Assembly: GCF_000184345.1 (NCBI RefSeq)
Contig: NC_017583.1
Location: 1,426,001 to 1,490,000 of the forward strand
Reading direction: 5' to 3'
From: Spirochaeta thermophila DSM 6578
GTDB taxonomy: Bacteria; Spirochaetota; Spirochaetia; Winmispirales; Winmispiraceae
DNA: 64,000 nucleotides
Both the position numbers and the translations under genes were made by a program. Below are positions 1 through 8,089 of this stretch, in pieces; position 1 is the first letter of the stretch, and every line of letters starts with the position of its first letter. The notes under the pieces are model-generated. The model was not told the DNA's origin. It made no database searches and saw only the letters and a list, made by a program, of their open reading frames with translations.

Positions 1-2118
1 CATCGCAGAGGCCTGGATCTCTCTGAAATCGAGGATCCCTTCCTTGGTCTGGAAGCCCACCGTGGACTCGCGGGTGATCTCCCTGGCACCCGCGTTCGAG
101 GTCATGATGAGTACGGCGTTCCGGAAGGAGACCCTGTGTCCCAGGTTGTCCTGCAGTTCCCCCTCTTCGAGGATCTGAAGGAGGATGTTGAAGACATCCG
201 GATGAGCCTTCTCTATCTCGTCGAAGAGTATCACCGAGTAGGGCCTGTGACGCACCTTCTCCGTGAGGAGGCCGCCCTCCTCGTAGCCCACATACCCTGG
301 AGGGGCCCCCACGAGCCTCGAGACGTTGTGTTTCTCCATGAAGTCCGACATGTCGAGCCGGATGAGCGCGGAGGTGTCGCCGAAGAGATATTCGGCCAGG
401 GTCTTCGCGAGAAGGGTCTTACCCACACCGGTCGGCCCGAGGAAGACGAACGACCCCATGGGACGGTTTGGAGAGCTCAGCCCCGTCCGCGCCCTGCGGA
501 TGGCAGATGCCACCACTTTTATGGCCTCGTCCTGGCTTATCACTTTCCGGTGGAGCTCTTCCTCGATATGGAGGAGACGCTCCGATTCACTCTGCGCGAT
601 CCTCACGAGCGGGATGCCGGTGATGTCGGAGACGACCTCCTGGATATCCTCCTGATCCACGATGTTCTGCGTCCGTTTGATCTCGAGCTTCCAGGCGGTC
701 TTCAGCCTCTCGAGCTCCATCTTGAGCCGGTTCACCTGGTCCCTCACCGCAGCCGCCCGCTCGTAGTTCTGCGTGTTCACGAGCATGATCTTCTCGGAAT
801 TGAGCTGGTCTATCTTTTTCTCAAGCTCCTCTATCTCCTGAGGCCGGTTGAGCACCTGCACGTGGGTCCGCGATCCCGCCTCGTCGAGCAGATCGATGGC
901 CTTGTCGGGCAGGTGGCGTTCGGTGATGTAGCGAGCAGAGAGGACCACCGCCGCCTCCACGGCCTTGCGCGTATAGGTGACGTTGTGGAAATCCTCGTAC
1001 CTCGTCTTTATCCCTTCGAGGATCTGGATCGTCTCCTCGATGGTCGGCTCGCGAACGTACACGGGCTGGAACCTGCGCTCCAGTGCCGCATCCTTTTCGA
1101 TGTACTTCCGGTACTCGTCCAGGGTGGTGGCGCCGATGCACTGGATCTCCCCCCGTGAGAGCGCAGGCTTGAGCATGTTGGAGGCGTCGATGGCACCCTC
1201 GGCACCGCCCGCGCCAATGATGGTGTGGAGCTCGTCGATGAAGAGGACCACGTTCTTCACCGAGACGATCTCCCGCATCACCCGCTTGAGCCGTTCCTCG
1301 AACTCGCCCCGGTACTTGGTCCCCGCCACCAGGGCCGCAAGATCGAGGACGAGTATGCGCTTGCCCTCGAGCATCTCGGGCACCTCGCCGCGCACGATCC
1401 GCTGGGCGAGAGCCTCCACGATCGCCGTCTTCCCCACCCCCGGGTCACCGATGAGCACGGGGTTGTTCTTGGTGCGTCGGGCCAGGATCTGGACGATACG
1501 ACGAAGCTCACGCTCCCTCCCGATGACCGGATCGAGCTTACCCGTCCGGGCGAGCTCGGTGAGATCCCTGGAGAACTCGTCGAGCAATGGGGTATTCTTT
1601 CTGTAGGCAGCCGACTGGAAAGCCCCCCTCCGTTTCTCCTGTTCCTCCTTCCCCCCCCACGAGCTGTTGTACACCGATTCACTCCCCTTCACCTCGAGGA
1701 TGGCCTCCCTCAAGACTTCCAGGTCGATGCCCTTCTGGGCCAGGAACCGGGTGAACACCCCCTCGCCGTCGCGGGCACATCCCAGCATGAGATGCTCGGT
1801 CCCAATGTATTCGTCGTCCAAATGGCGGGCCTCCTCGGCTGCATACTCGAGAACCCTCCTGCTCCTGGAGGAAAGGGGTACATCCCCGAGGATGAAACTC
1901 CCCCTCTGTTTGGAGAGATTCTTCTCTACGAAGACCTGGATCTCCTCCGGCGCGATCTTGAGACGTTTTATCGCTCTATAGGCAACGCCCGCCCCTTCGC
2001 GGATGATGGCGAGGATGATATGCTCCGGCTCCAGTTCTTCCGCATGAAACCGCTTCGCCTCATCCTGGGCGAGCACCGTGAGTATCTTCTGGGCGCGCTG
2101 CGTCAAATCCTTAAACAT
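1..2118 (-). CDS. clpC: ClpC-type AAA+ unfoldase (3' end outside window)
   Basis: ATP-driven unfoldase that feeds proteins to the ClpP protease in the cytoplasm. The first 706 codons are visible and the C-terminus lies beyond base 1. In order there is a double Clp_N domain (about residues 1-145), a first AAA+ module with Walker A GDPGVGKT near 224 and Walker B LFIDELH, a coiled-coil middle domain with a UVR-like stretch around 410-465, and a second AAA+ module with GPTGVGKT near 561. The middle domain between the modules marks it as ClpC/ClpB-like, and the neighbouring mcsA and mcsB genes favour ClpC. The ATG at 2118 follows a GGGGAG ribosome site and lies 17 bases after the mcsB stop, so it is the last visible gene of an mcsA-mcsB-clpC operon as in Firmicutes. 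Confidence 0.95.
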
Positions 2119-2135: not shown

Positions 2136-3194
2136 CTACCCATGGTCAGAGAGCATCTCCCTGAGCCATGCCGCACGGGCTTCCTCCTCTCCCTCACGCG
2201 AGAGAGAAACTCCCTCTGCCTCCATCCTGCTCCTCATGTGTCCCGGCTGGGAGGCGAAGTACAGGTATGGGAAACGCCCCAGATCCATGCGGGGTCCCAC
2301 CCCCCACACCGCCGCCGTCCTCAGGAGGAGCAAGGCCTCACTGGCAGCCTTCGAGGACACCTTCCGGGAGCTCGTGAGGATCTTCCACGCGGTGTCGATC
2401 CTCTCCCGAACCTCTTCTCTCCTCGTCCTGCTGGAGAGAAGGGTTTCTCGCTTCTCCCTCTCATAATGTATTACCATAGTACAGGTATCTTCAAGCCTTT
2501 TTCGTACTTTTTCAGGGGGAAGGCCCTGGACTCCGTCCATCATCAGGAGGAACATGCCTTGCGAGTACAGATCCCTGCCGCTCTGGAAAGGGAGGAAGAC
2601 CGCATCGTGCTCGGAAAGGAGCTTCTTCAGCATCACCACGGCCCGCTCTGCAAAGGTGGCAGGGGTATGGAGGAGGAGCGAAACCCTGTACCCGGTTCCC
2701 ACATCCTGTACGTTGGCATTGAGATAGCCCAATTCGAGCGAGAAGGCAAACGGGAGCTTCTCGTCCAGCTTCTCCGCCAGCTGACGCACGCTGTCCATAC
2801 CCTGCTGCACGTTGTAGCCGGGATCGTATCGCACCAGCCGGAGATGATCGGAGAAACAGACGAGACCGAGAGGGTCGGTATCGGGAGACAGCAGGAGAGA
2901 CCCGCCCGGGAAGGCCATGAGATCCTGTCGGGTCAGGACCTGCGATTCTATGAGCTGTTTCTTCGCCGTGGCGGGGAGGCTCTTGAGATCCACCCAGCGG
3001 GTTCCGGGGAGATAGTGAGACCAGGCGCTCACGATCCTCTCCACGAGCTCCTGCTGGACCCGTGTGCCGAGCATACCGGGAAACGGATACCCCGCCACGT
3101 TCCGCGAGAGACGCACCCGGGTGGACACCACCACCTCGTGCGGCTCGGGTGTCCTGTCGAACCATGAGAGCGATGGAATGGTGTAAGGATTCAT
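2136..3194 (-). CDS. mcsB: McsB-like protein, apparently catalytically dead guanido kinase
   Basis: 352 residues, the normal McsB length. It belongs to the ATP:guanido phosphotransferase fold: STRVRLSRN (24-32) matches the McsB arginine-rich ATP-binding motif, and DVGTG (164-168) sits in the active-site loop. Known McsB arginine kinases carry an INEEDH acid pair, an SCPTN cysteine and a YGEGSEA glutamate. Here the corresponding places read VCFSDH (112-117), ANVQD (160-164) and SGRDLYSQG (205-213), so the catalytic base, the cysteine and the substrate-binding glutamate all seem lost. The start overlaps the mcsA stop (ATGA) and clpC follows after 17 bases, so the gene remains in its usual operon. 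The likely role is a non-enzymatic adaptor or regulator of ClpC; that is inference. Family assignment is firm, loss of activity is read from alignment by eye. Confidence 0.85.
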
Positions 3195-3709
3195 GAACCC
3201 TGTTCTGCCCTGTCTTCTTCCAGTTCTCGGAGCCTGTCACGGATCCGCGCTGCGCGTTCGTAGTCCTCGTTGCGGATGGCGTGTTCGAGGCTCCGCTTGA
3301 GCCGCATCCTGTCCATGAGAATGCGCTTCACGGTGTTGAACCTCCGAGGGACACTCCCCCTGTACCTGTACCCCTGCGGGAGGAACTGATAGGCCTCTTT
3401 CCTGAAGACATAGTAGCAGTCGGGGCACCCCGCCCGCTGTCTGGCCCTGAACTCCTCCATCGACATACCGCATCCCGGACAGAGAACGTCGTCTTCCTCC
3501 TCGTCCTCGGCATCGTCCAGGCCATCCTCCTCGGGAACGAAGAGGGCCTGCAGGAACTCCTCTATATTGAAGCTCAGATCCCCCCCGAAGTGTTCTATTT
3601 CCACACTCTCGGCACACTGGGCGCAGAGCTCTATCTCCTTCACCTCGCCATTGGCGATATGCTGTATCTTGAGGACCACATCCTCCTCACCGCAGATCGT
3701 GCATGCCAT
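3191..3709 (-). CDS. mcsA: McsA-like zinc-finger protein with UVR motif
   Basis: 172 residues. Two CxxC pairs near the N-terminus (C3/C6 and C29/C32) and two more (C77/C80 and C95/C98) are separated by an acidic linker, followed by a basic region and a C-terminal UVR motif (about 130-165). This is the architecture of McsA, the activator that binds McsB and ClpC. The ATG at 3709 was chosen over an upstream in-frame start because it begins directly with the first zinc pair MACTIC and lies downstream of a -10-like sequence. Its stop overlaps the mcsB start. All four cysteine pairs are intact although its partner McsB looks inactive. Confidence 0.9.
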   Translation of the reverse strand: MACTICGEEDVVLKIQHIANGEVKEIELCAQCAESVEIEHFGGDLSFNIEEFLQALFVPEEDGLDDAEDEEEDDVLCPGCGMSMEEFRARQRAGCPDCYYVFRKEAYQFLPQGYRYRGSVPRRFNTVKRILMDRMRLKRSLEHAIRNEDYERAARIRDRLRELEEDRAEQGS

Positions 3710-3785: not shown

Positions 3786-5060
3786 TCACCCCTCCCTCCG
3801 CAGGACCTCCACGGGTGAGATCCGAAGCACATACCGAGCCGGACCCCAGGAAGCGAGGAAGGCGATCAGCGAGGCCCCCACGAAGATGAGCCACAAGACG
3901 AACGGGGAGGGGTGGACGGGGATGTGTTCCACGTAGAAATCCGACGAGAGTATGCGCACCGGCTCGTAGGATCCACCCCGAAGCCCGGCGGCAAGGCGGA
4001 GCCAGAGGTTCACGACGTGTTCCAGGAATGCGAACAACTCGTTGATGTAGAGCGAGATGAGGAGTCCACAGGCCATTCCCGCGAGGGATCCCGCCATACC
4101 CACGAGCATCCCCGTCCACAGGTAGGCCCTGCTCACCAGACGTGGTGGCACCCCGATGCTCTTGAGCATGGCGATCTCCTCGGCCCGCTCCAGCACGAGC
4201 ATCACCAGTGACGAGGAGATACTCAAGGCCGCAATGAGGACGAGAAGGCCCATGATGGCGAGGAGGAGTGCTCTGCTCGTGGAGAACGAGAGAAACTGCG
4301 CACGCCCCAGATCCTTCCACGAAAGGACGACCCATCCCGCGCCAAGACAAGCCGCGATCCTGGAACGCAAGGCCTCCATGTCGTGGAAGGGATCATCCAC
4401 CTTGATCCCGAGAAAGGCACGTGACGATCGCCTGTCGAAGACCCGATCCCCCCACTCGAAGGGGACGTAGACCCACAGCTTGTCCACATCCTGATAGCCC
4501 GTGGACGTCACTCCGGTGACCTCGAAGGTGGCGATACGCGGGAGGATGGTTCCGCCTCCGAAGCTCCGAAGCACGAGGAGCTTCACCTTGTCCCCCACCG
4601 AGATGCCCAGTGTACGGGCCACCTCCACCCCCACCACCATGTGCCTGGGAGAGGAGAGATCGAAGCGCCCTTTCTCTATGCTGAGGGAGGAGCGAAGGCC
4701 CTCGTCCTTCTCCCACCACCAGGAAGGCACGGCCCGTATCGTGACCCCCTCCCGCCTCACCCCGTTCACCAGGAGGCCCATCCCCTGGATTTCGGGAACA
4801 GCGAGGAAACCCTCGGCCGCCAGACGTTCCACGCCCTCCTCCATCGAGAGATCGGGGGCGTACGCGAAGGCCTGGAAGTGGTAGGTGGTGGTCTCGAGAA
4901 AACGGCGGGTGATGGCCTCTATCATCCCGTCGGAGACGTGGAGCACCACCACGAAGGGCACGAGGCCGAGGGCCACGGCCAGGAGCGAGGACCGGATACG
5001 GGGTGCGAGGGAAGGGCCGTCGAAGAGGTTCTTCCATGCGAGATAGATGAGGCGCTTCAT
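3786..5060 (-). CDS. lolE: LolE/LolC-type lipoprotein-releasing ABC permease
   Basis: 424 residues of the FtsX/MacB permease family: one membrane segment near residues 23-45, a large periplasmic domain (about 46-270), then three C-terminal membrane segments with the conserved MLKSIGV-type stretch after the second helix. Together with the adjacent LolD ATPase and a second permease it would form a LolCDE-like machine that extracts lipoproteins from the inner membrane. Its start overlaps the lolD stop by ATGA. Which of the two permeases is LolC and which is LolE cannot be decided from sequence; the names here simply follow position. It is the last gene of the chain beginning at prfB. Confidence 0.85.
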   Translation of the reverse strand: MKRLIYLAWKNLFDGPSLAPRIRSSLLAVALGLVPFVVVLHVSDGMIEAITRRFLETTTYHFQAFAYAPDLSMEEGVERLAAEGFLAVPEIQGMGLLVNGVRREGVTIRAVPSWWWEKDEGLRSSLSIEKGRFDLSSPRHMVVGVEVARTLGISVGDKVKLLVLRSFGGGTILPRIATFEVTGVTSTGYQDVDKLWVYVPFEWGDRVFDRRSSRAFLGIKVDDPFHDMEALRSRIAACLGAGWVVLSWKDLGRAQFLSFSTSRALLLAIMGLLVLIAALSISSSLVMLVLERAEEIAMLKSIGVPPRLVSRAYLWTGMLVGMAGSLAGMACGLLISLYINELFAFLEHVVNLWLRLAAGLRGGSYEPVRILSSDFYVEHIPVHPSPFVLWLIFVGASLIAFLASWGPARYVLRISPVEVLRREG

Positions 5061-5737
5061 GACCGATGGAGCCTCCCCCCCTCAAGGCGGTAGACGGTGT
5101 CGGCCCGAGAGGCGAGGGCGGCATCGTGGGTCACGAGGATGAGCGTGGCCCCCTCTTCCCGGACGAGGGAGAAGAACACATCCTCCACCATGCGGGACGT
5201 GCGCTCGTCCAGGTTGCCGGTGGGCTCGTCGGCGAGGACGATACGTGGGCCGTTCACCAGGGCCCGTGCAATGGCCACCCTCTGTCGTTCCCCGCCGGAA
5301 AGCTGGGAGGGGTAGTGGTGCATCCTGTCTCCGAGCCCCACCCTCACGAGGAGATCCCGAGCCTTCGCAGCCGCCTCAGAAAAGGAGAGCCCGGCCATAT
5401 ATGCGGGGAGGAGGACGTTCTCCAGGGAGGTACACTCCCGGAGGAGGTAGTGCATCTGGAAGACGAACCCCATGTCTCGCTGCCGGAAGGCCGCGAGCGC
5501 CTCCTCGTCGAGGGCGCCCATGTCCTGACCTTCAAGAAGTACGCGCCCCGATGTGGGGGTGTCGAGCCCCCCTATGAGGTGGAGGAGGGTGCTCTTCCCC
5601 GATCCACTCTCACCCATGATCACATGGACCTTCCCCCTCTCGAAACCGCCCGAGACCCCGTCCAGCACACGGAGGGATGTCTCTCCGGAGGGATACTCCT
5701 TCACCACTTCCTCAAGGACGATGATCGGATCACTCAT
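5057..5737 (-). CDS. lolD: LolD-type ABC transporter ATPase
   Basis: 226 residues, typical of LolD/MacB ATPases. Walker [10 protein letters not shown], signature [15 protein letters not shown], and Walker [12 protein letters not shown] are all present, followed by a switch histidine in LVTHD. The start at 5737 ([11 protein letters not shown]) is chosen because the preceding in-frame extension only overlaps the upstream permease gene. It overlaps the lolC stop by 8 bases and the lolE start by 4, indicating translational coupling between ATPase and permeases. Function: powers lipoprotein release from the cytoplasmic membrane. Confidence 0.93.
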
Positions 5738-7028
5738 TGCGTAACACCTCGGTGACGGAGAACGTCCGCAACATGCGGGTGGCCAGATACGCCGCCCCCC
5801 CTGAGACGAGGACAGCATAGAGGACGATCCCCAGGACTTCAACCGGATACACCCTGAAGGGAATCTCCAGGAGATAGAACGATTGCGGCGAGAAGATGCG
5901 GACGGATCCCAATCGGAACCGCCCCCCCCAGAACCTGCCGAGGGCGTTCCAGAGGTGAATACCGGCGTTGAGCATCGACTCCACCCAGGAGAAGACCCTG
6001 TTGATGTTGATGGAGAGGAGATACCCCCACATCGTGCCGAGGAATGCGCCCGTAGCACCGAGAACGATACCCTCGAGGAGGAAGACGCGCCTCACCTCCT
6101 CCACACGGGCCCCCACCGCCACCAGGAGGGCGAGCTCACCCCTTCGTTCGAAGATCGACCTCCTGAAGCCGTGGACGAGGTTGAGTCCGAGGACGAGGAA
6201 GATGAGACCGACGAGAAAGACGAGGAAGAGCTTCTCCATACGAAGGGCGTCGAAGAGGGCCCTGTTGTATTCCTCCCACGTGACCGCTTCGTAGCCCGCG
6301 CGGACGAGCCGTCGCTTCACCTCCTGTGCCCGTGAGGGGCGCGGGAGTTTCACGGCGAGAAAGGAGCCGTCGTCTCCACCGGCGACCAGGCGGGCATCCT
6401 CGAGGCCCATGAAGAGCATGGAACGGTCGATCTGATAGTTTCCGGTTCGGAAGACTGCGGAAACCACGAACCCCCGGCGCACCGGGACCAGGATCCCCGT
6501 CTCTCCCACGCTCAACCCGGTGAGGACGAGGGAATCACCCACCCCCACCCCCAGCTCATAGGCCAACTCCTGCCCCACCACCACCCTCCCCTCCCCCACC
6601 CGGAAGACACCCTCCCTCACCTCCACCACCCTCGCGAACCCCGGATCCCGCTCCCTCATCCCCTCCGGTACCCCCCGTACCTCCACGAACTCCACCTCAC
6701 CCCCCAGATCCCCCGCCAAGACCCGCACCTCCACCTGCGGCACCACCACCCCCTCACCCACCACTCTCTCCACCTCCGCCGCATCCACCGCTCCGTACAC
6801 CCTCACATGGAAGGACGCGACCTCCACCAGGGAGTCGATCGTGAGACTCTGGAAACCGTTCATCACCGAGAGCACCGTGACGAGAGTGGCCACCCCGAGC
6901 ACCACTCCGAGCCACGTGAGCAGGGAGGCTGCGGCCGTCTTCTTCCGTCTTCCCCTCAGAAGGTAGATCACCGCGAGCCGCCCCACCCACCGCCACACTC
7001 TCCATCTCGAGCGGAGCCACGCCTTCAC
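5730..7028 (-). CDS. lolC: LolC/LolE-type lipoprotein-releasing ABC permease
   Basis: 432 residues, FtsX-type permease with a membrane segment near residues 25-48 (WLGVVLGVATLVTVLSV), the signature MNGFQ just after it, a periplasmic domain, and three C-terminal membrane segments. The GTG start at 7028 overlaps the previous stop (GTGA); a longer open frame upstream only reads through the neighbouring gene and is rejected. The first half of the periplasmic domain (bases about 6530-7000) uses very G-rich codons (GTG, GAG, GGG), unlike the rest of the gene. Confidence 0.88.
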   Translation of the reverse strand: MKAWLRSRWRVWRWVGRLAVIYLLRGRRKKTAAASLLTWLGVVLGVATLVTVLSVMNGFQSLTIDSLVEVASFHVRVYGAVDAAEVERVVGEGVVVPQVEVRVLAGDLGGEVEFVEVRGVPEGMRERDPGFARVVEVREGVFRVGEGRVVVGQELAYELGVGVGDSLVLTGLSVGETGILVPVRRGFVVSAVFRTGNYQIDRSMLFMGLEDARLVAGGDDGSFLAVKLPRPSRAQEVKRRLVRAGYEAVTWEEYNRALFDALRMEKLFLVFLVGLIFLVLGLNLVHGFRRSIFERRGELALLVAVGARVEEVRRVFLLEGIVLGATGAFLGTMWGYLLSININRVFSWVESMLNAGIHLWNALGRFWGGRFRLGSVRIFSPQSFYLLEIPFRVYPVEVLGIVLYAVLVSGGAAYLATRMLRTFSVTEVLRNE

Positions 7029-8089
7029 TTCGCCTCCCGCACCGACACGAGCTCGCCGTCCAGGAAGAACTCCTCCCGCACGAGCCGTCCATCCGCCCCG
7101 TAGACCCGGCGCACCGAGGCACCCTCGCCCAGGTCCACCACCTCCGCCGACACCGCCCCCCCCTCCCCGAACTCCCGCCTCATCACGCGCACGCCATTCT
7201 CCCACACCTCCTCCCAGACCACCCGATCCCCCTCGTATCCGTACCGAGACTCCCTCACGAGCCCTTCCGTCACCTCCCGCTCCCACACCACCCTACCCCC
7301 CTCGTACCCGTACACCACCCGCCGCACCGACACCCCCTCACGCCGCCACACCTCCTCCACCGGCCGCCCCTCCCCATCGCAACGGACCTCCACTACCGCC
7401 CCCTCCGCCGGCCGCTCCTCCACCCACCCCTCACACACCCCGCCTTCGCCGTACCGGTACGTGCGCACCCACACGAGTCTCCCCCCCTCCCACTCCTCGC
7501 GCTCCACCACCTCGCCGGAACGGCCGTACCGGACGAGAAACCCCGAACCCCCATCCCCGTGCCACTCCTCCACGAGCCGGCCTCCCACCTGCACGTACCG
7601 GTCCACCCCCTTCTCGGGGACCGCCCGCACCTCCCTGAGCCGACCCTCCCGATCGTAGCGGAACTCCTCGGTACTCGTCCCTCCATCCACCCCCTCCCAC
7701 ACCCTCCGCACCACCCGCGCACCCTCATACTCGTACCGCACCCGCTCGGAGAACTCCCCCTCTCGATAGAATTCCTCCACGAGGAGGCGCCCCCCCTCGT
7801 CGTACCGAGAGACCCGGGAAAGCACCCCGTCCCCCCACACCTTCACCACCGAAGGCACACCCTCCCTGTGCCACACGATCTCCCAGCGCCGCACCTCCTC
7901 CCCCTCCCGGAAGAGCACCCGTACCTGCCGTCCCTCCCCATCCTCCACCATCAGCACGTACTCGTAACGACCTCGGTCGAACTCCTCGATGGGGACGAGC
8001 GCCTGCCCCATCTCGTTCGAAGAGAACCACAGAGGCGAAGCGAGCAACGACCATCCCACACCCCACAGGAGCCATCGGTACGCACGCAT
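7025..8089 (-). CDS. secreted repeat protein (YD/MORN-variant-like), unknown function
   Basis: 354 residues with a hydrophobic N-terminal signal sequence (about 1-22) and then a series of roughly 20-25-residue repeats of the pattern G-R-L-V-x-E-E-aromatic-hydrophobic-x-G followed by R-Y-x-Y-E-G-x-R-V-V. They resemble YD/Rhs-type or YwqK-type beta-hairpin repeats and predict an elongated beta structure in the periplasm or cell envelope. No catalytic motif is visible. It lies between ftsY and lolC and its stop overlaps the lolC start, so it is made with the lipoprotein-export machinery. It may help lipoprotein transit or be a surface protein; neither is shown. Coding strand is extremely G-rich (Val, Glu, Gly, Arg codons). 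Confidence 0.75.
   Translation of the reverse strand: MRAYRWLLWGVGWSLLASPLWFSSNEMGQALVPIEEFDRGRYEYVLMVEDGEGRQVRVLFREGEEVRRWEIVWHREGVPSVVKVWGDGVLSRVSRYDEGGRLLVEEFYREGEFSERVRYEYEGARVVRRVWEGVDGGTSTEEFRYDREGRLREVRAVPEKGVDRYVQVGGRLVEEWHGDGGSGFLVRYGRSGEVVEREEWEGGRLVWVRTYRYGEGGVCEGWVEERPAEGAVVEVRCDGEGRPVEEVWRREGVSVRRVVYGYEGGRVVWEREVTEGLVRESRYGYEGDRVVWEEVWENGVRVMRREFGEGGAVSAEVVDLGEGASVRRVYGADGRLVREEFFLDGELVSVREAK

Follow-up and report, generated by a model that had tools for sequence, protein, structure and literature searches.

The mcsB homologue of Spirochaeta thermophila DSM 6578 encodes a full-length protein in which the residues needed for catalysis have been replaced, and the sequence supports its reading as a pseudokinase kept between mcsA and clpC. 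McsB elsewhere marks damaged proteins by arginine phosphorylation. As the best explanation of our observations, to which we give a probability of roughly 0.6, the protein is a full-length McsB without kinase activity that is bound to McsA and serves as a non-catalytic adaptor or regulator of ClpC. Judged from the aligned homologues, loss of the catalytic cysteine is the class-wide state of the Spirochaetia, with repeated losses in the phylum, a pattern that was missed by an earlier note on this DNA.

The three genes lie head to tail on the minus strand of the window, by which we mean the whole stretch of 64,000 nucleotides that was analysed. The mcsB open reading frame occupies positions 2136–3194 (minus strand, stop codon at 2136–2138) and specifies 352 amino acids, in agreement with the McsB length given in the earlier note, which had not stated the strand. 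It overlaps mcsA (3191–3709, minus strand; 172 amino acids, with four CxxC pairs and a UVR motif) by the ATGA at 3191–3194, the probable start of mcsA being 3709 and not 3832, and 17 bases separate its stop codon from the start of clpC, whose 5' part (1–2118, minus strand) has 706 of its 836 codons inside the window. ClpC is split by the window edge and is whole in the genome (836 amino acids), and all four of the CxxC pairs of McsA are present, so that two further statements, that ClpC is intact and that McsA keeps every cysteine pair, were borne out. A promoter and terminator scan of the locus gave no signal above chance. The genome is a single contig of 2,560,222 bases and holds one PF00217 match, which is mcsB itself and the sole phosphagen-kinase gene; the possibility that a second, canonical mcsB lies elsewhere in the genome, which would make the window gene only a paralogue, was rejected on this basis. 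Immediately upstream of mcsA, at 3786–7286 (minus strand), two MacB/FtsX-type permeases flank an ABC ATPase in a LolCDE-like arrangement, whereas this position is taken by ctsR in the Bacillota. We also note a 354-amino acid protein at 7025–8089 (minus strand) whose N-terminus resembles a signal sequence; it has repeated Y/E/G/R-rich motifs and matches nothing in Pfam.

The window protein belongs to the McsB family by descent, as indicated by full-length homology, fold and gene order. It matches PF00217 (E 1.2e-17) and NF002194 (E 4.8e-35, residues 10–349), the latter with 121 bits against an equivalog cut-off of 385, and its top NCBIfam match, PRK01059 'protein arginine kinase', is under its cut-off. 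An AlphaFold2 model (26 sequences; mean pLDDT 81.4, pTM 0.79) falls below a pLDDT of 50 only at the N-terminal start and in the lid loop at residues 200–211, and it retains the whole McsB fold including the dimerisation domain. The closest solved structures are the McsB chains 8wtb, 6tv6 and 6fh1; the predicted fold superimposes on Bacillus subtilis McsB (6tv6) with a Z-score of 36.0 (340 residues aligned, 2.4 Å) and on the McsB of the McsA/McsB complex 8gqd with a Z-score of 27.7, and phosphagen kinases are matched at Z-scores of about 20, with the alignment confined to the catalytic domain (residues 15–252).

The changes at the catalytic centre can be placed with B. subtilis numbering, which was transferred to the window protein by way of a close Bacillus sequence. 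The nucleotide-binding motif recognised earlier as STRVRLSRN is present, with STRVR at residues 24–28 (3111–3125, minus strand, as for all codons given here) supplying R26 and R28, the equivalents of R29 and R31. Independent alignments agree with the earlier assignment of F114-S115 (2850–2855) to the place of the catalytic E120/E121 pair, directly before the retained D116-H117, and of N161 (2712–2714) to that of the catalytic cysteine C167. The glutamate of the YGEG motif (E212) has also gone, as had been claimed, though its counterpart in FQSGRD is G206 or S205, according to where the gap is set, and not the following R or D as had been proposed; this part of the lid loop (LPFQSGRD, residues 201–208; 2571–2594) is disordered in the model, with a pLDDT of about 40. 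Two losses came in addition to those listed in the earlier note: R207 is replaced by L201, and the phosphoarginine receptor R337-D338 by E336-E337 (2184–2189). The residues kept are R29, R31, R34, D122, H123, R125, R176 and R341, among which R29, R31, R34, R125 and R176 correspond to R26, R28, R31, R119 (2838–2840) and R170 (2685–2687) of the window protein.

In B. subtilis McsB the substitutions R29K, R31K, R34K, R125K, R176K, R207K and R337K each leave the protein without activity, and C167S is its kinase-inactive form (PMC7235348), while R337A/D338A has been used as a receptor mutant (PMC8370763); a review of the Staphylococcus aureus structure describes the McsB cysteine as catalytically essential and oriented by McsA (PMC12467219). 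Of the seven arginines on which the B. subtilis reaction depends, the window protein has thus kept five, and in the active site itself four out of five; all three of the positions C167, R207 and R337, where one change suffices to inactivate the B. subtilis enzyme, have been replaced in it. On these residues it would fall outside the active arginine kinases, since the cysteine, the EE pair, R207 and the lid glutamate all fail. Misalignment of the cysteine column is unlikely, as it stands in a nearly ungapped GYLxxx-GTG block with cysteine in 77 of 77 sequences from outside the phylum, and a sequencing error or single-genome peculiarity was rejected because the sister genome G001 (2,472,645 bases) has identical residues and similar losses occur across the class.

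We extended the comparison to McsB homologues from the rest of the phylum and beyond. PF00217 was found in 204 of 395 Spirochaetia genomes, almost always as a single copy, leaving about half without McsB, and our sample of 102 Spirochaetia homologues was taken from about 100 of these 204; it was set beside 38 usable McsBs from other Spirochaetota classes (two partial, divergent, cysteine-bearing homologues from these classes, L157 and L159, were omitted from the counts) and 77 from outside the phylum, comprising 75 loci from one scan, retrieved with patterns that exclude the cysteine column, and two structures. The catalytic cysteine occurs in 0/102 Spirochaetia, 10/38 other Spirochaetota and 77/77 outside sequences, so that alignment with Bacillus, Geobacillus and spirochaetal McsBs, as the earlier note had proposed, upheld the losses. 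As the cysteine, the EE pair and the lid glutamate are each present in all 77 McsBs from outside the phylum, the changes are not due to chance. Receptor arginine shows the same division (0/102 in Spirochaetia compared with 96% outside the phylum), and among the 75 positions that are at least 95% conserved outside, only this residue and the cysteine drop to 0% in the Spirochaetia. The EE residues, the cysteine, R207, E212 and R337 are together kept in 15% of cases on average, compared with 61% over all 75 positions; random sets of six positions were equally low in 12 of 200,000 draws, a figure that treats sequences as independent and so is descriptive and not a proof. The two EE residues are retained in 37% and 25% of the 102 sequences.

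A maximum-likelihood tree of 130 McsBs, built with the catalytic columns omitted, grouped 75 of the 79 Spirochaetia genera together (SH-aLRT 98), in a clade whose members all lack the cysteine. Counting losses only, the best tree requires ten separate losses of the cysteine, or at least seven after branches with support below 80 were collapsed, though the tree was built quickly and has several long branches, which leaves the exact number uncertain. Outside the Spirochaetia and within the Spirochaetota, McsBs with canonical EE, cysteine and glutamate residues are found at L120, L122, L124, L125 and L129, and the phylum therefore formerly had a normal kinase. We consider the chances about even that McsB became, on seven or more occasions among the spirochaetes, including one at the base of the Spirochaetia, a partner of McsA and ClpC that has no catalysis of its own and may be switched by nucleotide. 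If this is true, McsA–McsB–ClpC works in these bacteria without arginine phosphorylation or CtsR, and the adaptor role has been split naturally from the kinase role.

The partners of McsB have been retained alongside it. In the Spirochaetia, mcsA is directly upstream of mcsB at nearly all loci and clpC directly downstream at most, some blanks in this survey being short contigs or missed N-terminal matches, and 92 of 104 Spirochaetia McsAs have all four CxxC pairs. A search of 198 Spirochaetota genomes, S. thermophila included, gave no CtsR; the control for this search matched Lactococcus lactis and missed B. subtilis, so that its sensitivity is only partly established. B. subtilis possesses both PF00217 (mcsB) and CtsR genes, and as its control gave neither, that control seems to be incomplete for the mcsB operon. 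The glutamates E32 and E106 of the phosphoarginine pocket in the ClpC N-domain are 100% kept in spirochaetes, and this motif is expected to be structural as well. The N-domain of Spirochaetota ClpC departs from that of the Bacillota at R5, H26, T31 and T82, and N-domain changes outside the two glutamates are present equally in lineages that keep the McsB cysteine.

We regard a pure ClpC adaptor as the leading and a plausible explanation, based on the operon and on precedent. McsA and the window McsB would form a structural complex, which would engage ClpC, probably through its N-terminal domain, and would deliver or gate ClpC substrates without phosphorylating them. This is reasonable because the ClpC N-terminal domain binds the McsA/McsB complex and governs the ClpC resting state (PMC12583610), and because C167S supports MgsR turnover in B. 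subtilis, where it stabilises MgsR less than an mcsB deletion does and was taken by the authors as a sign that McsB can act as an adaptor independently of its kinase (PMC7235348). McsB of B. subtilis has been reported to depend on kinase activity to stimulate ClpC (PMC5506225), and the mechanism of a spirochaete adaptor would therefore differ.

The least certain step is that nucleotide binding, which may survive because five of the seven essential arginines and four of the five in the active site are kept, acts as a conformational switch. Taken further, the protein may be a nucleotide-sensing subunit in which ATP or ADP, bound without phosphotransfer, switches the interaction with McsA or ClpC; this is a sub-case of the adaptor explanation that we offer tentatively, at well below even odds. 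It is consistent with the retention of the equivalents of R29, R31, R34, R125 and R176, and with nucleotide arginines being kept in 67% of cases across the class, compared with 61% for the average position. R207 has been lost, however, and both SxRxR arginines are intact in just 70 of the 102 Spirochaetia McsBs.

Rather unlikely in our view is that McsB has become a functionless, decaying vestige, kept only by translational coupling within the mcsA–clpC operon. McsB does evolve faster in the Spirochaetia than in active lineages: where ClpC N-domain identity is 0.5–0.8, median McsB identity is 0.27–0.34 in the Spirochaetia compared with 0.45–0.57 outside, and between the window genome and that of G002 identity is 39% for McsB, 58% for McsA and 66% for the ClpC N-domain. 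Absence from about half of the Spirochaetia genomes fits such decay, as do two degraded copies, a 118-amino acid McsB remnant with an in-frame TGA in G203 (L119) and an mcsB with an in-frame TAA in G043 (L012), each of which reflects either decay or an assembly error. Against this, intact full-length open reading frames are found in nearly all of about 80 Spirochaetia genera, retained since the origin of the class, the zinc-finger pairs of McsA are retained alongside, and the structural positions E245, R340, R31, N32, G156, G166 and H117 (window numbering) are kept in 95–100% of sequences. Between two genomes of the genus, mcsB differs by seven synonymous and four non-synonymous changes (dN/dS about 0.18, a weak point as it depends on only 11 changes), mcsA by three and none, and the clpC part by ten and three. 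The faster change therefore points to a constraint weaker than that on an enzyme, with the gene nonetheless retained, and the earlier proposal that the operon is under selection is supported by the class-wide mcsA–mcsB–clpC order together with this dN/dS value.

It is more doubtful still that the window protein is an arginine kinase that remains active through a rearranged catalytic centre, with other residues supplying the negative charge. An Asp or Glu stands at the cysteine position in 41 of the 102 Spirochaetia relatives, the arginines of the SxRxR, DHxR and GTGxR motifs are kept in the window protein, and, to judge from its title, an arginine-kinase paper cited in PMC12467219 concerns partially active cysteine mutants, so that loss of the cysteine is not necessarily fatal across the family. 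Seven of the 102, which do not include the window protein, retain the EE pair plus a Glu or Asp lid residue, and these few may be weakly active. The replacements at the cysteine position (E 21, D 20, S 18, R 14, N 10, A 5 and others including K, H and F) are nevertheless too varied for a new catalytic residue, five catalytic or regulatory sites have been replaced together in the window McsB, and C167S, R207K and R337K each abolish activity in B. subtilis, all of which makes kinase activity of the window protein very unlikely.

The suggestion in the earlier note of a phosphoarginine reader, here taken as an ex-kinase that would recognise phosphoarginine through its C-terminal receptor, can be set aside as highly improbable, because the receptor arginine has gone (R337/D338 being E336/E337 here, with arginine in 0/102 Spirochaetia) and the genome has no other phosphagen-type kinase to write the mark, even though the protein retains its C-terminal domain and R340 (R341 of B. 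subtilis) does not vary. The receptor arginine is also missing from all ten of the cysteine-bearing Spirochaetota and survives among the sampled Spirochaetota only at L134 and L136, two members of another Spirochaetota family (f81) that have lost the cysteine and kept the RD receptor after its loss. These residues make L134 and L136 the strongest candidates for a genuine reader of phosphoarginine.

Returning to the pseudokinase adaptor, what appears to be new is that kinase chemistry has been lost in nature, more than once and throughout a class, from an otherwise intact McsA–McsB–ClpC system; our literature search, which covered mostly open-access journals, found no paper on McsB from spirochaetes or on a pseudokinase of this family. 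In B. subtilis, what McsB does as a kinase and what it does as an adaptor have been described as difficult to dissect (PMC5506225), and spirochaetes, in which the kinase chemistry has been removed from many lineages with McsA and ClpC intact, offer a route to the role of McsA–McsB without phosphoarginine. It also follows that spirochaete mcsB should not be annotated as a protein arginine kinase, nor phosphoarginine tagging be assumed.

Compared with known systems, the window protein is closest to the McsB of the Bacillota (B. subtilis, Geobacillus stearothermophilus and S. aureus; 6tv6, 6fh1–6fh3 and 8gqd), with which it shares its length, whole fold, dimerisation domain, mcsA–mcsB–clpC gene order and the SxRxR, DHxR and GTGxR motifs. 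It differs from these proteins, to which it is about 21–28% identical, in having no EE pair, catalytic cysteine, R207, lid glutamate or phosphoarginine receptor, and CtsR was not found in the Spirochaetota sample. Arginine and creatine kinases have the catalytic-domain fold in common with it (Z about 20, residues 15–252) but act on metabolites, have intact catalytic residues and are without a McsB-type dimerisation and receptor domain. MecA and YpbH are not known to be related to McsB in sequence or fold. The likeness to these two non-kinase ClpC adaptors of B. subtilis would be one of role, with substrate delivery and ClpC activation proposed to take place without phosphorylation (PMC5506225). 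The nearest precedent is the B. subtilis C167S protein (PMC7235348), an inactive McsB that still promotes MgsR degradation and has been given an adaptor reading, but whereas C167S was made in the laboratory and keeps the other catalytic residues, the inactivation of the window McsB would be natural and more thorough.
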